From Alphaproteobacteria bacterium (GTDB lineage: Bacteria; Pseudomonadota; Alphaproteobacteria; TMED109), in NCBI GenBank assembly GCA_015660425.1, contig DQLC01000063.1:1-33224 (forward strand): DNA of 33,224 nucleotides. The letters run 5' to 3'. The translations under genes and the position numbers were made by a program. Positions 1-25,652 of the stretch are shown here, one piece after another. The notes under the pieces are model-generated. The model was not told the DNA's origin. It ran no database searches and saw only the letters and a program-made list of their open reading frames with translations. Position 1 is the first letter of the stretch. The number at the start of each line of letters is the position of its first letter.

Positions 1-115
1 AGGAAGAAAAGCAATTTTTATAAGAGTAGAACTAACATTAGAAACTAAATTGATATTTACTGCTGAAGGAATTTGGCAAAAAATAAATAGAGAGAAAGGT
101 ATTCCTAAATCATGA
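1..115 (+). CDS. 3' end of a probable PaaI-like hotdog thioesterase (partial)
   Basis: An open frame enters from the left edge and ends at TGA 113-115, giving about 37 C-terminal residues. The segment GRKAIFIRVEL...FTAEGIWQKI resembles the last beta-strands of PaaI/YigI-type hotdog acyl-CoA thioesterases, where a strand ending in a Trp closes the fold. Such enzymes hydrolyse acyl-CoA or aryl-CoA thioesters in the cytoplasm. Its stop overlaps the start of the following GST gene (ATGA at 112-115), so the two are almost certainly translationally coupled in one operon. Only the tail is visible, so the family call rests on a short stretch and could be wrong; that a coding region ends here is much firmer. 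Confidence 0.5.
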   Translation, partial: GRKAIFIRVELTLETKLIFTAEGIWQKINREKGIPKS

Positions 116-720
116 AAATATTTTATACTGTAACATCACCTATAGCTAGAAAATGTAGAATTATTTCAAGAGAACTAGGTCTAATGGACCAAATGGAAGA
201 AGTTATTACTACTACAAGGTCTGAAGACGCCTTAATTATGGATCATAACCCTAATGGAATGGTTCCTACCTTAGAAACAAATGAAGGTTTTAAGATAGTT
301 GAATCAATGGCTATCTGTAATTATTTAGAAAAACAAAGTACTAGTAAAGAATTCATTCCACAAGATGAAAAAAGCTATTGGCAAATATATGCTTTAGATA
401 CAATAGCATCGCAAACTCTAGAATCTATAGTGTCAAGAGCACGAGAAAAATTATACAAACCAGCAGAATTTCATTTTCCTGCTGGGATTAAGCACGAACA
501 AAGAAGATCTACAAGAACATTTGATCTTTTGGAAAAACAATCAAATGCTTTCAGCAACACATTTAATAAGCTTCATGTTACTATTGGTCTAGCTTGCCTT
601 GTTCTAGACAATGTATTTCCTGATGAAAAATGGAAAGAAAATAGAAAAAATTTAGTAGAAATATATGAAAACTTTAAGGAAAGAGAATCTTTCTTAGATA
701 CAGTAAATAAGACTTCTTAA
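112..720 (+). CDS. Glutathione S-transferase family protein
   Basis: A 202-residue protein with the GST layout: a thioredoxin-like N-terminal domain (about residues 1-75) and an all-helical C-terminal domain. Visible marks are SPIARKCR after the first strand (S9 region, where the catalytic Ser/Cys usually lies), the cis-proline in GMVPTL (P52) and the glutathione gamma-glutamyl-binding pair E64-S65 in IVESMAICNYL. It resembles bacterial YibF/GstB-like cytoplasmic GSTs that conjugate or remove glutathione from small electrophiles. Its start overlaps the stop of the upstream thioesterase-like gene by 4 nt, and a short-chain dehydrogenase follows 13 nt downstream, so it belongs to a tight operon with a second GST-fold gene. 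Substrate is not deducible. Confidence 0.85.
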   Translation: MKIFYTVTSPIARKCRIISRELGLMDQMEEVITTTRSEDALIMDHNPNGMVPTLETNEGFKIVESMAICNYLEKQSTSKEFIPQDEKSYWQIYALDTIASQTLESIVSRAREKLYKPAEFHFPAGIKHEQRRSTRTFDLLEKQSNAFSNTFNKLHVTIGLACLVLDNVFPDEKWKENRKNLVEIYENFKERESFLDTVNKTS

Positions 721-733
721 TGGAGAAAATTAA

Positions 734-1459
734 ATGTCTGATAAAGGAAAAATTTGTTTAATAGCTGGAGTAGGCCCTGGTACAGGAACAGCAAGTGTAA
801 AAAAATTTTCTGAAAATGGTTATAAAGTTATAATGCTCGCGAGAAATAGTGATTTTATAAATAGCCTACAAAAAGAAACACCTAATTCATATGCATACAA
901 ATGCGATGTATCCAATATGACTGAAATTTCTGAGACTTGTTCTAAAGTTATATCGGATATTGGTAATCCTAATATATTCATTCATAATGCAGTTGCTGGC
1001 GTTGCTGATGGCGGGTTAGCAGGAAGTTTTCTAAGCGATAACCCTGAAAGACTTGATAGAAACTTTAATGTTAACACAAAATCTTTATTATACTTTGCAA
1101 GAGCCTTAGCTCCAAATATGATAGAAAATAAATTAGGCTCTATAATTGTTACAGGAAACACATCTGCTTTAAGAGGAAAACCAGATTTTATATATTTTGC
1201 ACCTACTAAGGCCGCTCAAAGAATATTAGCACAATCATTAGCAAGAGAATTAGGGCCTAAAGGTGTGCATGTGGCCTATGTATTAGTAGATGCTGCAATT
1301 GATACACCTAGAACAAGGCCAATCTTTGCCGGAGACAAAGAAGATAGTTATTTTTGCAAACCCACAGATATAGCTAATGAAATATTCCATGTTGCTCATC
1401 AAGCAAGATCTGCTTGGTCTTTTGATGTAGAACTAAGACCGGACATAGAAAAATGGTAA
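734..1459 (+). CDS. SDR-family oxidoreductase lacking the catalytic tyrosine
   Basis: A 241-residue Rossmann-fold protein of the short-chain dehydrogenase/reductase type. The nucleotide-binding turn reads AGVGPGTG (11-18), an atypical version of TGxxxGIG; CDV at 58-60 and HNAVAG at 84-89 match the adenine-ring and NNAG positions. The active-site region GNTSALRG (141-148) keeps a hydroxyl residue, but the YxxxK motif is FAPTK, with Phe155 where Tyr is expected and Lys159 kept; a Tyr lies one residue earlier (Y154). Groups of SDRs with this altered motif are known, and whether they are dehydrogenases is unclear. An SD-like GGAGA at 722-726 precedes the start. The gene sits between two GST-fold genes and overlaps the next one by 7 nt (ATGGTAA), so the three products probably act together. 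Confidence 0.85.
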   Translation: MSDKGKICLIAGVGPGTGTASVKKFSENGYKVIMLARNSDFINSLQKETPNSYAYKCDVSNMTEISETCSKVISDIGNPNIFIHNAVAGVADGGLAGSFLSDNPERLDRNFNVNTKSLLYFARALAPNMIENKLGSIIVTGNTSALRGKPDFIYFAPTKAAQRILAQSLARELGPKGVHVAYVLVDAAIDTPRTRPIFAGDKEDSYFCKPTDIANEIFHVAHQARSAWSFDVELRPDIEKW

Positions 1460-2271
1460 AAACTACTAAACCTTTATTAAGAATATTTTGTTACTTACCA
1501 ACACCTAGAATTTGGAAGTCTACAATTGCAGCTAGATTTTTAGATATAAATATTGAGCTTAGAGGAACAAAGCCAACTGAAATAAAGGATTGGTTATGGG
1601 ATTTTGATGCAAGGCCATTAACTAAAGAAGATAAAGTGAAACTAGCAGATAAGACCACAAAAGGCAGAACTGGCTTTTCTATTAAGCTTTACAAAACAGC
1701 TAGTTTTTTGGCTACTCAACCTTATGGAACAATCCCAGCTGCATTTAGTCCTGATGGTAAAATTGGTATATTCGAGTCCAATAGTATAATGCGATTAGTT
1801 GTAAGACTTAAAACTAAAAATAATACTTTATATGGTTCAACTCCTTATGAAAGTTCTCGAATAGATGGATTTCTTGATGCTTCACTTATTTTTGCACGAT
1901 CTTCACAAAAATATTTATTATCTATTAACAATAATTCAGTAAACAAAACTATAAGAAATGAAGCTAAAGAAGCTTATATTTCATACATGACAGGTATTGA
2001 GAATGCTCTTCGTGAAAATAAAAAAAATGGTTTTATAACTTCCAAAAATATTACGTTAGCCGATATATGCTTTTTTTGTGAATTCTCATTATTTTATAGA
2101 GAAATTATTCCCTTAAATAACCCTAAAAATGGAATAAATTCTATAATTAACGAATTAGGACCAAAATCTTTTAATCTTTCCATTAAACATTTCAAAAAAC
2201 TTAAAAAGCATCCTTATTTCAAAATTGATGCTAATAAATACCTAAGTGATATAGAAAAAAAATTAACTTAA
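1453..2271 (+). CDS. GST-fold protein with an enlarged N-terminal domain
   Basis: A 272-residue protein with weak but recognisable GST architecture. The N-terminal part starts LLRIFCYLPTPRIWKSTIAARFL, contains a roughly 40-residue insertion rich in charged residues (about 42-88), and then shows the cis-Pro/E-S signature TIPAAF (P95) ... IFESNSIMRL (E108-S109). The C-terminal half is helical, with the typical ITLADICFF helix start. The layout recalls the GST domain of fungal/eukaryotic elongation factor 1-gamma and related bacterial GSTs. It is translationally coupled to the upstream SDR (7-nt overlap) and its 3' end overlaps the convergent SDR gene by 9 bp. Two GST-fold proteins around an SDR suggest one glutathione-dependent pathway; the substrate is unknown. 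Confidence 0.75.
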   Translation: MVKTTKPLLRIFCYLPTPRIWKSTIAARFLDINIELRGTKPTEIKDWLWDFDARPLTKEDKVKLADKTTKGRTGFSIKLYKTASFLATQPYGTIPAAFSPDGKIGIFESNSIMRLVVRLKTKNNTLYGSTPYESSRIDGFLDASLIFARSSQKYLLSINNNSVNKTIRNEAKEAYISYMTGIENALRENKKNGFITSKNITLADICFFCEFSLFYREIIPLNNPKNGINSIINELGPKSFNLSIKHFKKLKKHPYFKIDANKYLSDIEKKLT

Positions 2272-3060
2272 ATCATGTCCTGCAGAGGCAACTAAACCTC
2301 CATCGCATGTAATAACTTCTCCTATTGTATATGCTCCTGCTCTCGAAGATAAAAATATGGCTAGACCCGCTATATCTTCTGGCGTTCCTATTCGTCCTCT
2401 TGGATTTTTTTGTTCTAATTCTGTATAATTAAATTCTACTGCTGAACCTAACATCTTGCTTGGAAACGGACCAGGAGCAATTGCATTTACATTAATATGT
2501 TTTTTTACTAATTCTGCTGCTAGTACCCGTGTCATATGATGTACGGCAGATTTCGCTGCACTATAGGAAAAGTTTTTAAATTCAGGATTATTAATTCCAT
2601 CAATTGATCCTATATTAATTATTCTTGATGGATCTTCTTTATTTGCAGATTTACATAGCAAAGGTAATAAATTTTGCGTAAGAAAAAACATAGATTTAAC
2701 ACATAGGTCCATAACTTTATCCCAACCTATTTCAGGAAAATCTTCAATAGGAGCAGCCCAAGCTGCTCCTGCATTATTTATTAAAATATCGAGATGATCT
2801 TCACTATTTTTTATTTCATTACCTAGCTTCTTTACCCCTTCAATAGAAGAAATATCAGATTCTATTCCAATACATTGAGAATCATATAGTTTTGTTAATC
2901 GCTTAGCTGTCTTTTTCACAATATCTTTTGATCTTGCAGAAATATATACTTTGGCTCCATTGGCACAAAAGCCAGCAGCAATCATTTCACCTATTCCTCT
3001 AGAACCACCAGTCACTAAGACTACTTTACCTTCAACTGAAAATAAATTATTGATTAACAT
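2263..3060 (-). CDS. Short-chain dehydrogenase/reductase, RhlG/FabG-like
   Basis: A 265-residue classical SDR with every hallmark: TGGSRGIG (17-24) for NAD(P) binding, SDI (68-70), NNAG (95-98), catalytic Ser152 in NIGSIDGI, and YSAAK (Y166, K170). The C-terminal segment INVNAIAPGPFPSKM closely resembles RhlG-type beta-ketoacyl reductases and other FabG-like enzymes that reduce 3-oxoacyl groups or secondary ketones with NADPH in the cytosol. It stands alone on the minus strand, convergent with the GST/SDR operon (9-bp overlap of coding ends) and divergent from the Liv importer. The physiological substrate cannot be read from sequence; unlike the SDR at 734 its active site is intact. Confidence 0.9.
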   Translation of the reverse strand: MLINNLFSVEGKVVLVTGGSRGIGEMIAAGFCANGAKVYISARSKDIVKKTAKRLTKLYDSQCIGIESDISSIEGVKKLGNEIKNSEDHLDILINNAGAAWAAPIEDFPEIGWDKVMDLCVKSMFFLTQNLLPLLCKSANKEDPSRIINIGSIDGINNPEFKNFSYSAAKSAVHHMTRVLAAELVKKHINVNAIAPGPFPSKMLGSAVEFNYTELEQKNPRGRIGTPEDIAGLAIFLSSRAGAYTIGEVITCDGGLVASAGHDLS

Positions 3061-8107: not shown

Positions 8108-9922
8108 TTATATTACAATGACTTCTTCATCATTACTTGAATCATCATACAATTTATTTACTAAATTTTCTCTTGCTGCCAAAGCGGAAGACTGATTGAC
8201 ATAACCTTTATCTGTTATTTCATTATTATCAAAAGATGGAGGAGTGCTCAGAAGAATAAGTTTTTTAATTTTAGTACTAGACCCTGGAAAATTCTTATTA
8301 TGTACCATTATTCTTTTCTTAATCTCTTCCTTTAATAATGGATGTTCTAAAATTTCATGAGTTTCTATTTCTTGATCTATAAATTTTTTACAAGCCTCCA
8401 TATTGGGCCACGCAAGAAACCCTAAATAATTTTTATCATGACCTGTTACCAAGCCATCTTGAAATAATGGTGCACATGAATTAACAACTGCTAAACGAAG
8501 ACTTCCTACATCTACCCATGTGCCGGTAAGAAGTTTAAAATTTTCAACTACTCTTCCGTCAAAATCTATCCCTCTGCTGGGGTCACTAGGATCTACTAAC
8601 CTTCCTGCATCACCAATTAAATAAAAACCTTCTTCATCAAAAGCTTTTTCTGTTAAATCATCTCTTTTTAAATATCCAGGGGTAACATTAGGCCCTTTTA
8701 CCCTTAACTCCATTTTATTACCTACAGGAACCATTTTAATTTCCATGCCTGGGACTGGTAACCCTATGTTCCCTGGTTTATCAATTTTAAAATAAGTAGA
8801 TGTCGCTAATGGTGCTGTTTCAGTTGCTCCCCAACCGCATAAAAGTTCTATCTCTCTCCCTGTTGTTTTTTTTGCTAAATCTCTAATTCCATACCACACT
8901 TCTTCAGGTAATGAAGCTCCACCATAGGCTATATACATTAAGTTTTTAAAAAATGTTTTTCGTAATGTTAAATCTATTTTTAAATGTTCTAAGAGCAATG
9001 CTAATCCAGCAGGTACTGACCCATAATAAGTTGGAGAAATTTTTTTTAAATTATCTACTGTAGTTGAAAAAAGTGCAGGAACCGGTTTACCTCCATCAAT
9101 ATACATCGTTCCACCAGTCCAAAATACTCCATTAAAAGAATGATTTCCTCCCATAGTATGATTCCAAGGTAACCAATCTAATACAATAGTTTTTCCCAAT
9201 TCGTGAGGTCTTACTTGTTGTGCTTGTTGCATATTTACACACAACATTTTTTGTGTATTAATCACTCCTTTTGGCATGCCAGTAGAGCCAGAAGTAAATA
9301 AATACTTAGCTACATATTCCGAGGTAACAGAATTATATACTTCTTCTACTTTCTCTCCTGGAACAATAGTTAATATATCTTTAAATAATTCCATTTTATA
9401 CCTAGCAACAGGATTTATTGAGCAGACTACTGTAATATTATCTAAAGGGAGTTGTTGTAGTGCCTTTTCAAACATTACTCCATCTTCTACAAAAATTAAG
9501 CCAGGGTTTACTAATTCAAAACAATGTTTTAATTTTGCATAATCACTACTCATTAAAGAATAAGCAATAGATATTGGAGCTACAGGTACTCCAGAACATA
9601 AACCAGCAACATTTAATAATGCATGATTTATACTATTTCCAGATAAAATCATAATAGCTTTATTTTGATTTAAACCTTTGTCTATTAAGTATTGAGATAT
9701 ACTATTTATAGATTGTAAGGCATTTTTATAAGATAGTTTTCTCCATCCTCCATCATCTCTTTCTGCTAACCAAATATTTTCTGGAAATTGCTCGCAAGTT
9801 TTTCTGAACTTGTTACCCACATTAACTTCAGATTTTTCAAGTTTTAATGGAGATCTTAAGATTAAAGTTCCATCATCCCTTGTTTCTACATCAATTTCTT
9901 GAGGAGGAAATGTTAATTTCAT
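8108..9922 (-). CDS. Feruloyl-CoA synthase-like acyl-CoA ligase
   Basis: A 604-residue AMP-forming ligase. The P-loop-like motif YLFTSGSTGMPKGV (207-220) and the A5-type GWGATETAP are clear; the final catalytic Lys is expected at K572 in EITDKGYVNQ. The block VLDWLPWNHTMGGNH (247-261) with the following GGTMYIDGGKP and ISPTYYGSVPAG is the signature of the feruloyl-CoA synthase subfamily (Fcs, about 600 residues), and length and order agree throughout. The family activates hydroxycinnamates such as ferulate or p-coumarate to CoA thioesters using ATP; marine relatives may use other aryl or acyl acids. It is probably co-transcribed with the flavoprotein gene 33 nt upstream on the same strand, and faces the Liv importer. 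Confidence 0.85.
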   Translation of the reverse strand: MKLTFPPQEIDVETRDDGTLILRSPLKLEKSEVNVGNKFRKTCEQFPENIWLAERDDGGWRKLSYKNALQSINSISQYLIDKGLNQNKAIMILSGNSINHALLNVAGLCSGVPVAPISIAYSLMSSDYAKLKHCFELVNPGLIFVEDGVMFEKALQQLPLDNITVVCSINPVARYKMELFKDILTIVPGEKVEEVYNSVTSEYVAKYLFTSGSTGMPKGVINTQKMLCVNMQQAQQVRPHELGKTIVLDWLPWNHTMGGNHSFNGVFWTGGTMYIDGGKPVPALFSTTVDNLKKISPTYYGSVPAGLALLLEHLKIDLTLRKTFFKNLMYIAYGGASLPEEVWYGIRDLAKKTTGREIELLCGWGATETAPLATSTYFKIDKPGNIGLPVPGMEIKMVPVGNKMELRVKGPNVTPGYLKRDDLTEKAFDEEGFYLIGDAGRLVDPSDPSRGIDFDGRVVENFKLLTGTWVDVGSLRLAVVNSCAPLFQDGLVTGHDKNYLGFLAWPNMEACKKFIDQEIETHEILEHPLLKEEIKKRIMVHNKNFPGSSTKIKKLILLSTPPSFDNNEITDKGYVNQSSALAARENLVNKLYDDSSNDEEVIVI

Positions 9923-19645: not shown

Positions 19646-19728
19646 CAACTACAATAAACACACAAATTTTATCTTTAAAAAATATTATGATATGCTCAAA
19701 TAAATGTTTATTACAAAACAAAAAACAA

Positions 19729-19734
19729 AGGAGG
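19729..19734 (+). promoter_or_regulatory. Strong Shine-Dalgarno of the PQQ dehydrogenase gene
   Basis: AGGAGG with flanking AAAGGAGGGG (19727-19736) is the best ribosome site in the window. It ends 6 nt before ATG 19741, fixing that ATG as the start rather than the in-frame ATG at 19687, and it predicts high translation. Confidence 0.8.
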
Positions 19735-19740
19735 GGAAAC

Positions 19741-21438
19741 ATGAATAAATATATAACAAAGTTATTTATATTAATGTTTTTAGTTATTTTTAATATAAAT
19801 TTATCTAATGCACAAAGTTTAGTTACTGATGAAATGTTAATAACGGCACAGGAAGATCCTAACAATTGGTTAATGGCTCCAGGAAATTATACTGGAAATA
19901 GATACAGTAAACTTGGTCAAATAAATCATTCAAATGTATCTAAGTTAGTACCAAAATGGATTTTTTCTTTAGGAACTCTAGACGCTCAAAATACTACTCC
20001 AGTTATTCATAATGGAGTTATGTATGTTACAGCATCACATGGTAAAACTTTTGCGTTAAATGCGGAAAATGGCCAAGAAATATGGAGATATAGTCACCAG
20101 TTGCCAGAAGGAGTGGCAGGTAAAATGTGCTGTGATATAGGTAATAGAGGTGTTGCCTTATACGGGAATAAAGTTTTTGTAGCAACTCCAGATGCACATG
20201 TAGTAGCCCTTAATAAAGATGATGGTAGTGTTATTTGGGATGAAACCATTGGAGACTGGGAAAAAGCATATACTATGACTGTTGCCCCTTTAATTGTTAA
20301 AGGAAATGTTATAGTAGGTATGTCAGGTGCAGAATATCCTACAAGACTATATATAGAAGCACTAAATAGTGACACAGGAAAACAGGCTTGGAGAACATAT
20401 ACTATTCCTGGACCCGGTGAGCCAGGTCATGATAGCTGGGGATCTGCAAGAGCTGCTGAATTTGGTGGTGCGTCTGCTTGGATAACTGGTTCATATGACC
20501 CTGAATTAGATATACTTTATTGGGGAACAGGAAATCCTAATCCAGATTGGGATGGTGTTGTAAGACCAGGTGATAATCTATATTCAAATTCTACATTAGC
20601 TTTAAACCCAGACACAGGTGAAATAAAATTTTACTTTCAATACACCCCTGCAGATGTCTGGGACTATGATGGAAATAATGAACCTATATTAGTTGATTAT
20701 GGAAATGAAAAAGTTTGGCTTCATGGGGACAGAAATGGATATTTATATAAAATTGATAGAACCAATGGCCAATTTAGATATGGTAAAGAAATCTCTAAAG
20801 TAAATTGGAATACGGGCTTTACATATGATGGTCGTCCAATATGGAATATGGATAAAGTTCCAACATATGAGTACGAGGCAAAAAATATTTGCCCAGCCTC
20901 AGAAGGAGGAAAATGGTGGAATCCTATGACAGTTAATCCTGAAACTGGGTGGGTATTTATTCCAAGTAGAGAAATTTGTGTTGACATTAAAAGTGCACCA
21001 CTTGGAGAAGGCTTAAATCCAGATGAAATAACTGAAGGCAAACCTTATTGGGGAATTGGTACAATAGGTTGGAATACAGGTTATGGACAATTAGTTGCTT
21101 TTGATGGAAGAACTGGTGAAAAAAAATGGGTTGTAAAAGATAGATCTCCGTTTACTAGTGGATTACTTAGCACTAGAGGAGGACTATTATTTGCTGGTAC
21201 GCCTGAAGGTGAGTTTAGAGCTTATCATCAAGAAACTGGCGAAGAGCTTTGGTCATTCCAAACTGGCTCAGGAATATTTGGAAGCCCATCTACATACACA
21301 ATAAATGGTAAACAATTTATTGCAGTACCATCTGGATTTGGTGGCTGGACTGGTTGGGCACATTTTGGTGAAGGAGGAGCTCCTTGGCTAAAAGATAGTC
21401 GCAAAGGCGGAATAATTATCGGCTTTGGATTACAATAA
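19741..21438 (+). CDS. PQQ-dependent alcohol dehydrogenase, lanthanide-type
   Basis: A 565-residue periplasmic quinoprotein. Residues 1-24 form a signal peptide ending in SNA. The eight-bladed propeller carries W-motifs such as ALNAENGQEIW and AYHQETGEELW. Key residues: vicinal Cys130-Cys131 over the PQQ ring, metal ligands Glu198 (SGAEYP) and Asn265 (GTGNPNPDW), catalytic Asp308 and, two residues on, Asp310 (VWDYDGNNE). This extra Asp is the known mark of lanthanide-dependent enzymes (XoxF, ExaF, PedH); calcium enzymes have Ala or Ser there. Substrates in the family are methanol, ethanol and other primary alcohols. A strong ribosome site suggests heavy expression. A cytochrome c gene follows across a terminator hairpin; no PQQ synthesis or xoxJ gene is present here. 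Confidence 0.93.
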   Translation: MNKYITKLFILMFLVIFNINLSNAQSLVTDEMLITAQEDPNNWLMAPGNYTGNRYSKLGQINHSNVSKLVPKWIFSLGTLDAQNTTPVIHNGVMYVTASHGKTFALNAENGQEIWRYSHQLPEGVAGKMCCDIGNRGVALYGNKVFVATPDAHVVALNKDDGSVIWDETIGDWEKAYTMTVAPLIVKGNVIVGMSGAEYPTRLYIEALNSDTGKQAWRTYTIPGPGEPGHDSWGSARAAEFGGASAWITGSYDPELDILYWGTGNPNPDWDGVVRPGDNLYSNSTLALNPDTGEIKFYFQYTPADVWDYDGNNEPILVDYGNEKVWLHGDRNGYLYKIDRTNGQFRYGKEISKVNWNTGFTYDGRPIWNMDKVPTYEYEAKNICPASEGGKWWNPMTVNPETGWVFIPSREICVDIKSAPLGEGLNPDEITEGKPYWGIGTIGWNTGYGQLVAFDGRTGEKKWVVKDRSPFTSGLLSTRGGLLFAGTPEGEFRAYHQETGEELWSFQTGSGIFGSPSTYTINGKQFIAVPSGFGGWTGWAHFGEGGAPWLKDSRKGGIIIGFGLQ

Positions 21439-21451
21439 AAACATAAAGTTT

Positions 21452-21490
21452 GGACAATATATGATTTTTTTTCATATATTGTCCTATTTT
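21452..21490 (+). terminator. Hairpin terminator between PQQ dehydrogenase and cytochrome c genes
   Basis: A perfect 13-bp stem, GGACAATATATGA (21452-21464) with TCATATATTGTCC (21472-21484), closes a seven-T loop and is followed by TATTTT. It lies 13 nt after the dehydrogenase stop. The downstream T-tract is short, so it could be a partial terminator or an mRNA-stabilising 3' structure that lowers expression of the following gene. Confidence 0.7.
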
Positions 21491-21514
21491 ATAATATCAT
21501 AATAGGGTCATACA

Positions 21515-21937
21515 TTGACTAAAATTTTCTTATATAAACTTTCTATTAATATTATTTTACTAATTTTTTTATTTATTATATCTTTTAATAACTCTATAGC
21601 TGGAGCTGGAAGTAAAGAAATAGAAGACATACAAATTGATAAAAATCCTCTTACTTTAAATGAAGATAATATATTTAAAGGTAAAAAACTCTGGAGGAAA
21701 ACTGGGTGTTATAGCTGTCATGGAGGAAATGCTGAAGGAGGAGTAGGCCCTAGCCTTCAAGATGATATATGGGTTTATAAACCAAACGATAAAATGCTCT
21801 TTAAAACTATAGCAAAAGGTAGAAGTGGTACAGTTATGGTAGCATGGGAATCAGAACTCTCACAAACTGAAATATGGGAAATTATTATATTCATAAGATC
21901 TCTTTATACAGGAGATAAAAGCAAAATAATTTGGTAA
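21515..21937 (+). CDS. Class I cytochrome c, probable electron acceptor of the alcohol dehydrogenase
   Basis: A 140-residue exported protein. A long hydrophobic N-terminal segment (about 10-30, ending NSIAGAG) is a signal peptide. The single haem site is CYSCH (65-69), followed by GGVGPSLQDDIW and the probable axial Met108 in GTVMVAW; WEIIIFIRSLY is the C-terminal helix of class I cytochromes. The start is TTG 21515, with AGGG at 21502-21505 as ribosome site. Its place just after the quinoprotein gene fits the XoxG/cytochrome cL role of taking electrons from PQQ in the periplasm. It is smaller than typical XoxG, and the pairing is inferred from context. Confidence 0.85.
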   Translation: MTKIFLYKLSINIILLIFLFIISFNNSIAGAGSKEIEDIQIDKNPLTLNEDNIFKGKKLWRKTGCYSCHGGNAEGGVGPSLQDDIWVYKPNDKMLFKTIAKGRSGTVMVAWESELSQTEIWEIIIFIRSLYTGDKSKIIW

Positions 21938-23230: not shown

Positions 23231-24172
23231 ATGAAAAAATACGCTGCTTACATATGTATAATAATTGCTTTATTATGTAATAATGCAATTGCAAATAACA
23301 AAATTACATTGCTATTAGATTGGTTTATCAATCCAGATCATGGACCGGTTATTATTGCTAATGAAAAAGGAATATTTAAAGAAGCAGGGCTAGAAGTTGA
23401 AATTATTGCTCCGGCAAACCCTGCTGACCCTCCTAAATTAGTTGCAGCTGGTAAAGCAGACATTGCAATTTCTTATCAACCCCAATTACATCTGCACGTT
23501 CACGAAGGTTTACCATTAGTTAGGATTGGCACTTTAGTAGCCACTCCATTAAATTGTCTATTAGTTCTAAAAGATGGCCCCATAAAACAACTATCTGATT
23601 TAAAAAATAAAAAAATAGGCTATTCTATCTCAGGAATGGAACAAGCTTTATTAAGCGCTATACTTAATAAAGCAAATATTAAAAAAGATGAAGTTGAATA
23701 TATTAACGTTAATTGGTCTCTATCCCCTGCTCTTATGAGCAAACAAGTAGATGCTGTAATAGGTGCTTTTAGAAACTTTGAATTAAACCAAATGGAAATT
23801 GAAGGAGTCGCAGGTAAATGTTTTTATATAGAAGAAGAAGGTGTTCCTCCATATGATGAATTAATATTTATAGTAAACAACCAGAATATTAATAAAGAAA
23901 TACTTATAAAGTTCTTAAGATCTATTGAAAAAGCTACCCAATACATCATTAATCACCCTGAAGAAAGTTGGAAAATTTTTGCTAATTCTTCTAAAGAATT
24001 GGATAATGAATTAAATAAAAGAGCATGGTTTGATACCATACCTAGATTTGCATTAAGGCCAGCTGCACTGGACAAAGGTAGATATAATAGATTTGAAGAC
24101 TTTCTTTATAATGAAGGTCTAATTAATAAAAAATTATCTCATGAAAAAATAGCAATAGAAATATATGAATAA
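23231..24172 (+). CDS. thiY: Thiamine-pyrimidine ABC transporter substrate-binding protein, ThiY-like
   Basis: A 313-residue NMT1/THI5-fold binding protein. A signal peptide (1-21, ending AIA) is followed by ITLLLDWFINPDHGPVIIANEKGIF, the hallmark of ThiY/HMP-binding proteins, and by NPADPPKLVAAGKADIAISYQPQ. The family binds pyrimidine precursors of thiamine (formylaminopyrimidine in Bacillus). RibY-type riboflavin proteins look alike, but the TPP riboswitch directly upstream settles the pathway. The gene starts 4 nt after the aptamer and opens the thiY-thiZ-thiX operon; the ATPase gene begins 5 nt after its stop. Its product scavenges precursor in the periplasm and its synthesis should fall when TPP is plentiful. 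Confidence 0.93.
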   Translation: MKKYAAYICIIIALLCNNAIANNKITLLLDWFINPDHGPVIIANEKGIFKEAGLEVEIIAPANPADPPKLVAAGKADIAISYQPQLHLHVHEGLPLVRIGTLVATPLNCLLVLKDGPIKQLSDLKNKKIGYSISGMEQALLSAILNKANIKKDEVEYINVNWSLSPALMSKQVDAVIGAFRNFELNQMEIEGVAGKCFYIEEEGVPPYDELIFIVNNQNINKEILIKFLRSIEKATQYIINHPEESWKIFANSSKELDNELNKRAWFDTIPRFALRPAALDKGRYNRFEDFLYNEGLINKKLSHEKIAIEIYE

Positions 24173-24177
24173 ATAAA

Positions 24178-24903
24178 ATGATAAAAAGTTCATCTTTTTC
24201 TTTACATGGAAGTCTTTGGGCAAACAAAGATAAACTTTTTTCTAATTTAAAATTAAATATAAAATTTAACAAATGGACTATAATTATTGGACAATCTGGT
24301 GCTGGTAAGTCTACTCTTTTAAAAATTATTGCCAATCTAAATATACCAGACACCTTTACTAATAATATTTATAAAAATACTAATATAGATCTATCTTTTT
24401 CCTGGATGGCCCAAAATGATTTATTACTTCCTTGGTTAAATGTTATTGAAAACGTAACACTAGGACAAAAATTAAGAAGAGAAAAAATAAACCTCAATAA
24501 AGCTAATATTCTATTAGAGAAAGTAGGTTTAATAAATGTTGCAAATCATTTACCCTCAACATTGTCTGGTGGAATGAGGCAAAGAGTAGCATTAGCAAGA
24601 ACTTTAATGGAAGATAATGATATTATATTAATGGATGAACCTTTCTCTGCCTTAGACACGATGACCAGATCTAAAATTCAAAAACTTACATGGTCATTGC
24701 TTAAAGAGAAAACTGTAATAATGGTTACTCATGAGCCTTTAGAAGCCTTATTATTAAGTGATAATCTATACTATATACATAATAAACAATTAAAACCTAT
24801 TAAGCTGCCTAAAACAAAGCCATTAAGAAAAATTAATAGTGAAAATGTGCTCTACTGTCATGAATATATTCTTAAACTTTTAAAAAAATCCTATACATTA
24901 TGA
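24178..24903 (+). CDS. thiZ: Thiamine-pyrimidine ABC transporter ATPase, ThiZ-like
   Basis: A 241-residue ABC ATPase with Walker A GQSGAGKST (38-46), the Q-loop in FSWMAQNDLLLPWLNV, signature LSGGMRQRVALARTLM, Walker B IILMDEPFSALD and H-loop VTHEPLEAL. The short Q-loop with NDLLLPW is typical of SsuB/TauB/ThiZ-type ATPases. It powers the importer from the cytoplasmic side. The stop overlaps the permease start by 4 nt (ATGA at 24900-24903), so both are coupled, and the gene lies under control of the upstream TPP riboswitch. Confidence 0.92.
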   Translation: MIKSSSFSLHGSLWANKDKLFSNLKLNIKFNKWTIIIGQSGAGKSTLLKIIANLNIPDTFTNNIYKNTNIDLSFSWMAQNDLLLPWLNVIENVTLGQKLRREKINLNKANILLEKVGLINVANHLPSTLSGGMRQRVALARTLMEDNDIILMDEPFSALDTMTRSKIQKLTWSLLKEKTVIMVTHEPLEALLLSDNLYYIHNKQLKPIKLPKTKPLRKINSENVLYCHEYILKLLKKSYTL

Positions 24904-25652
24904 AGACATTTATTAAATTTTTATTCAGCTTTGTAATTTTTATAGTAACCTGGTGGATTATACAATATTTAACAAAAACTCCTTCTTATATTTTACCTAG
25001 CCCATATATCGTATTGTTATCTATCATGAATAATCTAGACTTACTTATATACCACTCATTCATTACATTTTATGAAATTTTAATAGGATTTTTATTAGGA
25101 ATAATATTTGGAATGTATACAGGAATTTTATTTATTATTTCAAAAAGCACCAGAAGATGGCTACTTCCTTTTATTATATTAACGCAAGCAATACCTATAT
25201 TTGCTATAGCACCAATATTAACTTTATGGGTAGGATATGGTATTTGGTCAAAGATAATCATGACTATATTAATAATTTACTTTCCAATTACTATTTCATT
25301 TTATGATGGTTTAAAAAGGATAGACCCAATGATAGTAAACTTAGCTAAATTGATGGGTGCAAATACATTTACAATGCTATTAAAAATTAGAATACCGTTT
25401 GCTTTACCTCAATTATCCTCAGGATTAAAATTAGCAGCCGCATTTGCTCCAATGGGAGCAGTAATTGGTGAATGGGTTGGTTCTTCAAAGGGATTAGGTT
25501 ATTTAATGCTTTATGCTAGCGGAAGAGTACAAATTGATTTAATGTTTGCTTCAATAATTATTTTAGCAATTTTTACAGTAACTCTCTATAATATTGTTAC
25601 TGTTGTAACTAACCAATTAACAAAATGGGATCCAAAATCTCACTTAAATTAA
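24900..25652 (+). CDS. thiX: Thiamine-pyrimidine ABC transporter permease, ThiX-like
   Basis: A 250-residue inner-membrane permease of the SsuC/TauC/ThiX class with about six hydrophobic segments. YILPSPYIVLLSIMNN near the N terminus and the EAA-type loop IDPMIVNLAKLMGANTFTMLLKIRIPFALPQLSSGLKLA (coupling helix that docks on ThiZ) are diagnostic, as is GAVIGEWVGSSKGLGYLML. It starts inside the thiZ stop codon and is the last gene of the riboswitch-controlled operon. The aldehyde dehydrogenase 25 nt downstream may be read through from it, since no terminator is visible between them. Confidence 0.92.
   Translation: MKTFIKFLFSFVIFIVTWWIIQYLTKTPSYILPSPYIVLLSIMNNLDLLIYHSFITFYEILIGFLLGIIFGMYTGILFIISKSTRRWLLPFIILTQAIPIFAIAPILTLWVGYGIWSKIIMTILIIYFPITISFYDGLKRIDPMIVNLAKLMGANTFTMLLKIRIPFALPQLSSGLKLAAAFAPMGAVIGEWVGSSKGLGYLMLYASGRVQIDLMFASIIILAIFTVTLYNIVTVVTNQLTKWDPKSHLN

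Follow-up and report, generated by a model that had tools for sequence, protein, structure and literature searches.

Conserved pairing of an SDR-fold protein lacking the catalytic Ser and Tyr with an EF1B-gamma-like GST-fold protein, and its possible role in CoA-thioester catabolism

The subject of this study is a stretch of 33,224 nucleotides (the window, meaning the whole stretch analysed) of contig DQLC01000063.1, from the assembly of an Alphaproteobacteria bacterium (GCA_015660425.1). Three plus-strand open reading frames (ORFs) were confirmed in tandem: GSTa (202 amino acids), a glutathione transferase (GST) resembling YibF; SDRb (241 amino acids), with the fold of short-chain dehydrogenases/reductases (SDRs); and GSTc (272 amino acids), with a predicted GST fold. 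We found that SDRb and GSTc are a lasting conserved pair, and that the pair, not the trio, is the unit. We propose, with a probability of about 0.5, that the two proteins form a conserved module of CoA-thioester catabolism, in which a glutathione-dependent step is combined with a non-classical NADP(H)-dependent step to degrade a CoA-activated compound.

The occurrence of both genes was followed in an even draw of 385 genomes of the class. GSTc (E ≤ 1e-30) was detected in 16 genomes and the SDRb clade (E ≤ 1e-55, seven SDR candidates scored per genome) in at least 37. Fifteen of the 16 GSTc genomes also have SDRb, with 1.5 expected (hypergeometric probability 4e-16), and by genus the overlap is 12 of 12, with 1.1 expected (1.6e-14); these figures disregard shared ancestry and genome size and come without control by another rare GST family. 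The 16th GSTc genome (G015) has an SDRb match that is 65% identical over residues 134-241 and adjoins GSTc. In seven of the 16 genomes (G000, which is the genome of the window, G012, G015, G018, G254, G373, and G389) no more than 5 kb separates the two genes. Among 97 relatives, GSTc was found at 1e-50 or better in 18, all of which have an SDRb match of at least 50% identity (covering just a portion of SDRb in G015). Two further relatives with weak GSTc matches (1.9e-5 and 5.8e-4) were left out of the count, and seven of the 97 have SDRb at 50% or more without GSTc.

A wide scan of named genomes yielded 304 stretches encoding a GSTc relative, of which the best 80 were kept, a set thus skewed to close relatives. 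As titled, these loci include Bradyrhizobium (20 loci), Reyranella, Vineibacter, Chelatococcus, Methylibium, and Panacagrimonas, as well as marine Alpha- and Gammaproteobacteria, Deltaproteobacteria, and Binatia/Binatota. SDRb (at least 45% identity) is no more than 5 kb away from GSTc in 49 of the 80 loci, and in 42 of these the distance is at most 300 bp; when Bradyrhizobium is excluded, the 5-kb count is 29 of 60. Gene order was compared for the 48 pairs in which both genes are full-length (46 come from the 80 loci, and the other two are L183 and L185; starts were set by rule): GSTc precedes SDRb in 25, SDRb precedes GSTc in 19, and the genes are on opposite strands in four. The order has changed while the company has been kept, which argues for a shared function of SDRb and GSTc. 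An identical 7-nt SDRb/GSTc overlap was observed in 11 of the 48 pairs, Reyranella included. A fusion of the two genes was considered and rejected: 18 of the 48 pairs share a reading frame, yet they are separate ORFs with an intervening stop. No description of the SDRb-GSTc pair was found in the literature, among the matches listed. One GSTc locus (L172) is in a metagenome-assembled genome (MAG) titled Klebsiella pneumoniae, which looks mislabelled.

The trio as a whole is conserved to an extent that is more than chance. Seven genomes of the genus were searched, and five of them have it on a single contig; two genomes of other genera (G007 and G009) likewise carry it. In G002 the trio is divided between two contigs and an in-frame TAG is present within the SDRb match; in G005 (96% complete) there is no GSTc, the SDRb match is just 55%, and the GSTa match covers 111 residues. 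The operon order in relatives is MR_MLE (enolase superfamily), 4HBT thioesterase, GSTa, SDRb, and GSTc, with near-constant junctions in three genus members and G007 (-1, 14 to 27, -7, and -9 nt). The window's own junctions are -4, 13, -7, and -9 nt: the thioesterase stop (113-115) overlaps the GSTa ATG by 4 nt, 13 nt separate GSTa from SDRb, SDRb and GSTc overlap by 7 nt, and GSTc meets a fourth gene, SDR4, tail to tail with a 9-nt overlap. Homologues of SDR4 at 70-89% identity are confined to the window's lineage. An earlier account of this DNA, made without database searches (the sequence-only reading), had described a GST-SDR-GST cluster with 13-nt and overlapping junctions behind a thioesterase tail; the ORF calls bear this out, and comparison with the intact gene of locus L026, which matches PF03061, identifies the tail as the C-terminal end of a 4HBT thioesterase. 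That account took the trio as the unit. Its neighbourhood is indeed conserved, but the unit is the SDRb-GSTc pair, as GSTa is rarely present elsewhere.

GSTa is the least conserved partner and a lineage-specific neighbour of the pair. No homologue was detected at 1e-8 in GSTc loci beyond the window's close relatives, and a GSTa bait (tblastn) matched six of the 80 GSTc loci. It is a GST by Pfam (GST_N_2, 1.1e-13), and can be classed by its sequence as a relative of YibF, not an equivalog: PDB chains of YibF type match it over the full length, whereas its score against the YibF model NF007682 (3.1e-19, 69.3 bits over the full length) is under the cut-off of 181 bits. Close to the N-terminus is a TSPIARK motif with Ser9, which is found in TSPIARK or TSPLARK in all five sequences. 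Membership of the GSTs in housekeeping families had been named as a weakness to look for in the sequence-only reading; GSTa does group with YibF, but GSTc is no housekeeping GST, and the gene neighbourhood has been conserved.

No Pfam or NCBIfam model matched GSTc at E ≤ 0.001. It is called a GST because of weak PDB hits, the Pfam hits of its homologues, and its predicted fold. The best match of the GSTc profile in the PDB is the GST domain of human EF1-gamma (EF1B-gamma; 3.8e-13). With the AF2 model (mean pLDDT 90.3), Foldseek placed EF1B-gamma at ranks 1-4, 5jpo first, and VIA placed 5dqs first (Z 20.7, 206 aligned residues, rmsd 2.8), tied with rows down to Z 19.8 that are other GSTs. GSTc represents a GST family of its own, whose closest counterpart by sequence is the GST domain of eukaryotic EF1B-gamma. 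GSTc has the GST-like N-terminal domain fold of EF1B-gamma (5dqs, 5jpo), and its residues 5-271 align to the GST domain of 5dqs. It differs in that the C-terminal EF1-gamma part is absent from the stand-alone bacterial protein, in an identity of 19-22% in structural alignments, and in a conserved insert of about 40 residues. Within this insert W47, W49, D50, and A53 are invariant in 47 of 47 sequences; residues 71-80 are modelled with lower certainty (pLDDT 65). Y14, P95, E108, and S109 are also invariant (47/47), and Pro95 and Glu108-Ser109 hold positions that we take to be typical of a glutathione site. Position 17, the usual Ser/Cys position as judged by motif, is Asn in 43 sequences, Thr in three, and Ser in one. 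The kept residues, together with the prevailing Asn, suggest that binding of glutathione is likely and that the chemistry would not be of the LigG-cysteine type.

The closest solved relative of SDRb by a wide margin is 3h7a (1.3e-39 in a PDB profile search), a "short chain dehydrogenase" by name alone. The SDRb model has a pLDDT of 88, and its fold is FabG-like, with Z of 28-29 among the matches listed. The Rossmann glycine motif (G12/G14/G16/G18) of classical SDRs is present and invariant in all 28 aligned sequences. The Ser and Tyr of the classical catalytic tetrad are absent from the same 28 rows: the tetrad positions read N114-N142-F155-K159, each invariant. In a wider alignment of 34 rows, two of which are SDRs of another clade, F155 and K159 remain invariant, and N114 and N142 are conserved in at least 90%. 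A36-R37 is found at the end of strand 2 in 28 of 28 sequences; as a rule, Arg at the position of R37 favours NADP(H). SDRb has in common with 3h7a the Phe at the Tyr position (FASAK in 3h7a) and a C-terminal SAW-x-F-x-x-E-x-RP motif. On rhizobial plasmids (L186 and L188), SDRb relatives have genes for molybdopterin oxidoreductase and enoyl-CoA hydratase nearby, and the stretch covered carries no GST annotation. The same three genes are consecutive in a Reyranella locus (L115, 12014-15860), where GSTc comes about 2.2 kb before them. This company hints at SDRb's own pathway.

The clusters around the pair have acyl-CoA breakdown as a common theme, and the gene set is not fixed. Within 9 kb of GSTc, baits matched as follows in the 80 loci: ligase 23, nitronate monooxygenase (NMO)/FabK-like flavoprotein 26, thiolase 22, acyl-CoA dehydrogenase 20, and enoyl-CoA hydratase 27. 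Other baits within this distance were HCCA-isomerase-like (15), a second GST, GST230 (8), CoA-transferase III (9), and MR_MLE (9); at least one further glutathione-type enzyme (GSTa, GST230, or HCCA-isomerase bait) was present in 24 of the 80 loci. The plasmid cluster of Bradyrhizobium sp. 186 encodes HCCA isomerase, ligase, SDR, two acyl-CoA dehydrogenases, thiolase, a member of the nitronate monooxygenase family, enoyl-CoA hydratase, GSTc, and a last SDR that belongs to another clade than SDRb. In Variovorax boronicumulans the genes are GSTc, HCCA isomerase, SDRb, Zn-dehydrogenase, and enoyl-CoA hydratase. In G027 of genus g7 (L039), a ketopantoate-reductase-like gene, a further GST, and a gene like CoA-transferase III run divergently from the pair. 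With no single fixed gene set, the substrate may differ between clusters. A shared transporter was also considered and rejected: in loci beyond the window's lineage, nothing homologous to its binding protein and two permeases was detected at 1e-8. In one Bradyrhizobium locus (L121) a Peripla_BP_6 gene follows SDRb. A gene for an AurF-type N-oxygenase is directly after the pair in L147 (9872-11053), a MAG titled Deltaproteobacteria. In two marine relatives (L145 and L162) MR_MLE accompanies SDRb on one strand and GSTc is on the other, which makes the enolase-superfamily gene a possible third partner in marine lineages.

Table 1. Positions of the genes and gene segments discussed, in window coordinates
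Feature	Position	Strand	Evidence
4HBT-fold thioesterase, C-terminal end (rest beyond window edge)	2..115	+	translation compared with intact gene of L026; Pfam PF03061 on L026 gene
GSTa, YibF-like glutathione transferase, 202 aa	112..720	+	Pfam, NCBIfam, PDB chain matches
SDRb, SDR-fold protein, 241 aa	734..1459	+	Pfam adh_short, PDB profile search, model
SDRb codons 142-159: Asn142 and Phe155 at classical Ser and Tyr, Lys159 retained	1157..1210	+	alignment; LigL tetrad (PMC4858972)
GSTc, EF1B-gamma-like GST-fold protein, 272 aa	1453..2271	+	PDB searches, AF2 model, Foldseek, VIA
GSTc insert, residues 41-82, between strand 2 and next GST helix	1573..1698	+	AF2 secondary structure
GSTc residues 95-109: Pro95, Glu108-Ser109	1735..1779	+	alignment, 47/47
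SDR4, classical SDR, convergent with GSTc	2263..3060	-	ORF call, Pfam, relatives' loci
Acyl-CoA ligase ("feruloyl-CoA synthase-like")	8108-9922	-	NF009232, 794 bits (cut-off 777)

The remainder of the window (3162-33178) is a dense catabolic region. It encodes a branched-chain-type ABC importer, acyl-CoA ligases, a FabK/NMO-like flavoprotein, enoyl-CoA hydratase, amidohydrolases, an FMO-like monooxygenase, a CoA-transferase-III-like protein, and a D-amino-acid-dehydrogenase-like protein. At 19687-21937 a PQQ-dependent dehydrogenase of the methanol/ethanol family, which exceeds the TIGR03075 cut-off, precedes a MoxG-like cytochrome c that scores below cut-off. The dehydrogenase contains a WDYD stretch, presumably a mark of lanthanide-dependent (XoxF/PedH-type) enzymes. 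An NMT1/THI5-like binding protein, an ABC ATPase, and a probable permease (23231-25652) make up an uptake system of unsure substrate.

In the proposed module, the glutathione use, the NADP(H) preference, the direction, the reaction, and the substrate are inferred. Here the module would share an operon with genes for an enolase-superfamily enzyme, a thioesterase, and a YibF-like GST in an accessory role. GSTc would bind glutathione at the kept site (Pro95, Glu108-Ser109), and the invariant Tyr14 is a possible activator of the thiol, since the usual Ser/Cys position is mostly Asn. GSTc would add glutathione to an electrophilic intermediate (such as an enone, enoyl-CoA, or epoxide) or isomerise it via a glutathione adduct. 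SDRb would then bind NADP(H), with hydride transfer proceeding without the classical Ser/Tyr acid-base pair; the simplest step would be reduction of an activated C=C bond, and alternatively SDRb may act on the glutathione adduct itself. The use of glutathione is suggested by the residues of the glutathione site and by matches to PF02955 (glutathione-synthetase family, which is not specific to glutathione makers), with E 3e-68 in the genome of the window and no worse than 1e-64 in eight of its nine nearest relatives.

Besides the limits of the hypergeometric figures, a number of observations weigh against this proposal. The two genes are apart in nine of the 16 GSTc genomes of the class sample, and the matches to SDRb in G373 and to GSTc in G117 each contain a stop codon. 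SDRb occurs without GSTc in 22 of the 37 class-sample genomes, so the SDRb reaction need not involve glutathione. No member of the SDRb clade is within 5 kb in 31 of the 80 GSTc loci, some of which are short contigs, and in loci titled Binatia/Binatota the best SDR is 35-39% identical and about 3 kb off. In L184 (8810-9520) and L143 (8219-8956) an SDR of another clade (27-28% identity to SDRb) adjoins GSTc; these SDRs also have Phe at the Tyr position. A single syntenic Bradyrhizobium cluster, seen in 20 of the 80 loci, dominates the acyl-CoA neighbour counts, and the acyl-CoA neighbours elsewhere differ from the window's genes. The match to PF02955 is weak in G006, and the family also matches controls, among them Bacillus subtilis and archaea, that are not known to have glutathione. 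Finally, SDRb may be catalytically dead.

In another explanation, SDRb would bind NADP(H) without catalysis and serve as a partner or sensor in a complex with GSTc. The Asn and Phe in place of Ser and Tyr in 28 of 28 sequences would fit, as would the translational overlap in some lineages and the resemblance of GSTc to EF1B-gamma, its nearest match, whose GST domain serves as a protein-binding module. We consider this quite improbable given that Asn114, Lys159, and the glycine motif are retained in the same 28 sequences and the glutathione-site residues of GSTc in 47 of 47. It is also unlikely that these are general detoxification or redox proteins, of broad reaction and with no defined substrate, that merely happen to be located in catabolic regions. 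GSTs are often detoxifying, GSTa is YibF-like, and the neighbour set is not fixed across the 80 loci; however, GSTc is patchy (16 of 385 genomes) and yet bound to one SDR clade in varied gene orders. The nearest analogue of the module, likened by gene descriptions and not by sequences, is the isoprene and styrene type of route (IsoGHIJ, StyGHIJ), which has a GST-SDR-GST logic, sometimes with a CoA-transferase III. In such a route a GST opens an epoxide with glutathione, an SDR oxidises the hydroxyl of the conjugate, and a CoA-transferase III and a second GST act next. According to the published account, iso clusters encode the SDR IsoH, the GSTs IsoI and IsoJ, and the CoA-transferase-III-like IsoG (PMC10057887), and genes of the last two kinds do occur near GSTc (CoA-transferase III in nine and a second GST in eight of the 80 loci), both of them beside the pair in G027. 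IsoH is described as an active NAD+ dehydrogenase (PMC10057887), whereas SDRb lacks the catalytic Ser and Tyr. Furthermore, a search for the diiron monooxygenase family Phenol_Hydrox (PF02332) in 19 genomes belonging to the window's family (G000-G018, with G000 itself only 62% complete) found none. A route of this type thus appears quite unlikely.

The sequence-only reading had likened the cluster to the glutathione-dependent cleavage of lignin beta-aryl ethers by LigD, LigE, LigF, and LigG of Sphingobium SYK-6, in which case SDRb would oxidise the C-alpha alcohol while GSTa and GSTc would cleave the ether and remove glutathione. A coherent, conserved set of glutathione-type enzymes is what remains of this reading. 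The likeness is one of broad classes (an SDR and two GST-fold proteins, with presumed glutathione chemistry) and of an acyl-CoA ligase 6 kb off; that ligase, called feruloyl-CoA synthase-like at the time, is present, but the model that it passes, NF009232, describes a broad acyl-CoA synthetase subfamily, and its homologues within 9 kb of GSTc are confined to six of the 80 loci, all of the window's own lineage. In profile searches with LigD, LigE, LigF, and LigG chains in the library and E-values scaled to the size of the PDB library, none of the Lig GSTs was matched significantly by GSTc (LigF 7, LigG 1.4e4, LigE 2.4e4) or by GSTa (LigF 0.17, LigG 5.6, LigE 7.9e3), and LigE, LigF, and LigG are absent from the full PDB match lists of GSTa (23 rows, E ≤ 0.001) and GSTc (36 rows, E ≤ 10). 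One pairwise BLASTP comparison, of GSTc against LigF, returned E 0.012 (22% over 116 columns), the level expected of two distant GSTs. Between SDRb and LigD the E-value is 4.6e-7, the level of a distant, general SDR relationship and far from the score with 3h7a. No weight was given to the absence of LigD from the 60 of 375 PDB rows listed for SDRb, or to that of LigE, LigF, and LigG from the matches listed in the fold searches. The SDR active site had been said to differ from the LigD type, and it does. In the Lig dehydrogenases the catalytic tetrad is N-S-Y-K, as described for LigL, whose NAD+ selectivity residue is Asp36 (PMC4858972); SDRb has N-N-F-K, and Arg37 where LigL has Asp36. The catalytic Cys15 of the LigG type is likewise missing, with Ser9 in GSTa and Asn, Thr, or Ser at position 17 in GSTc (correspondence judged by motif). 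Elsewhere the pair is among other acyl-CoA genes. Homology with the beta-aryl-ether system was rejected on the GST profiles, the SDR tetrad, and the cofactor-loop residue, and we regard this kind of cleavage as very improbable.

A bolder version of the preferred reading, a CoA-thioester module with a glutathione step and an NADP(H) step, is that an EF1B-gamma-like GST with a new insert passes a glutathione adduct on to an SDR that lacks the Tyr and carries out non-classical NADPH chemistry, an undescribed and widely distributed catabolic step. We offer it tentatively, as doubtful in this full form. To our knowledge, few systems of glutathione-dependent carbon catabolism have been described, namely those for lignin ethers, isoprene, and styrene. 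The resemblance of GSTc to EF1B-gamma may bear on the origin of that eukaryotic domain. The pair is present in cultured genera (Bradyrhizobium, Reyranella, and Variovorax), and its function is therefore testable by knockouts in growable strains. If the bolder version is true, bacteria from marine plankton to Bradyrhizobium would share a route through a hard-to-degrade CoA-activated compound.

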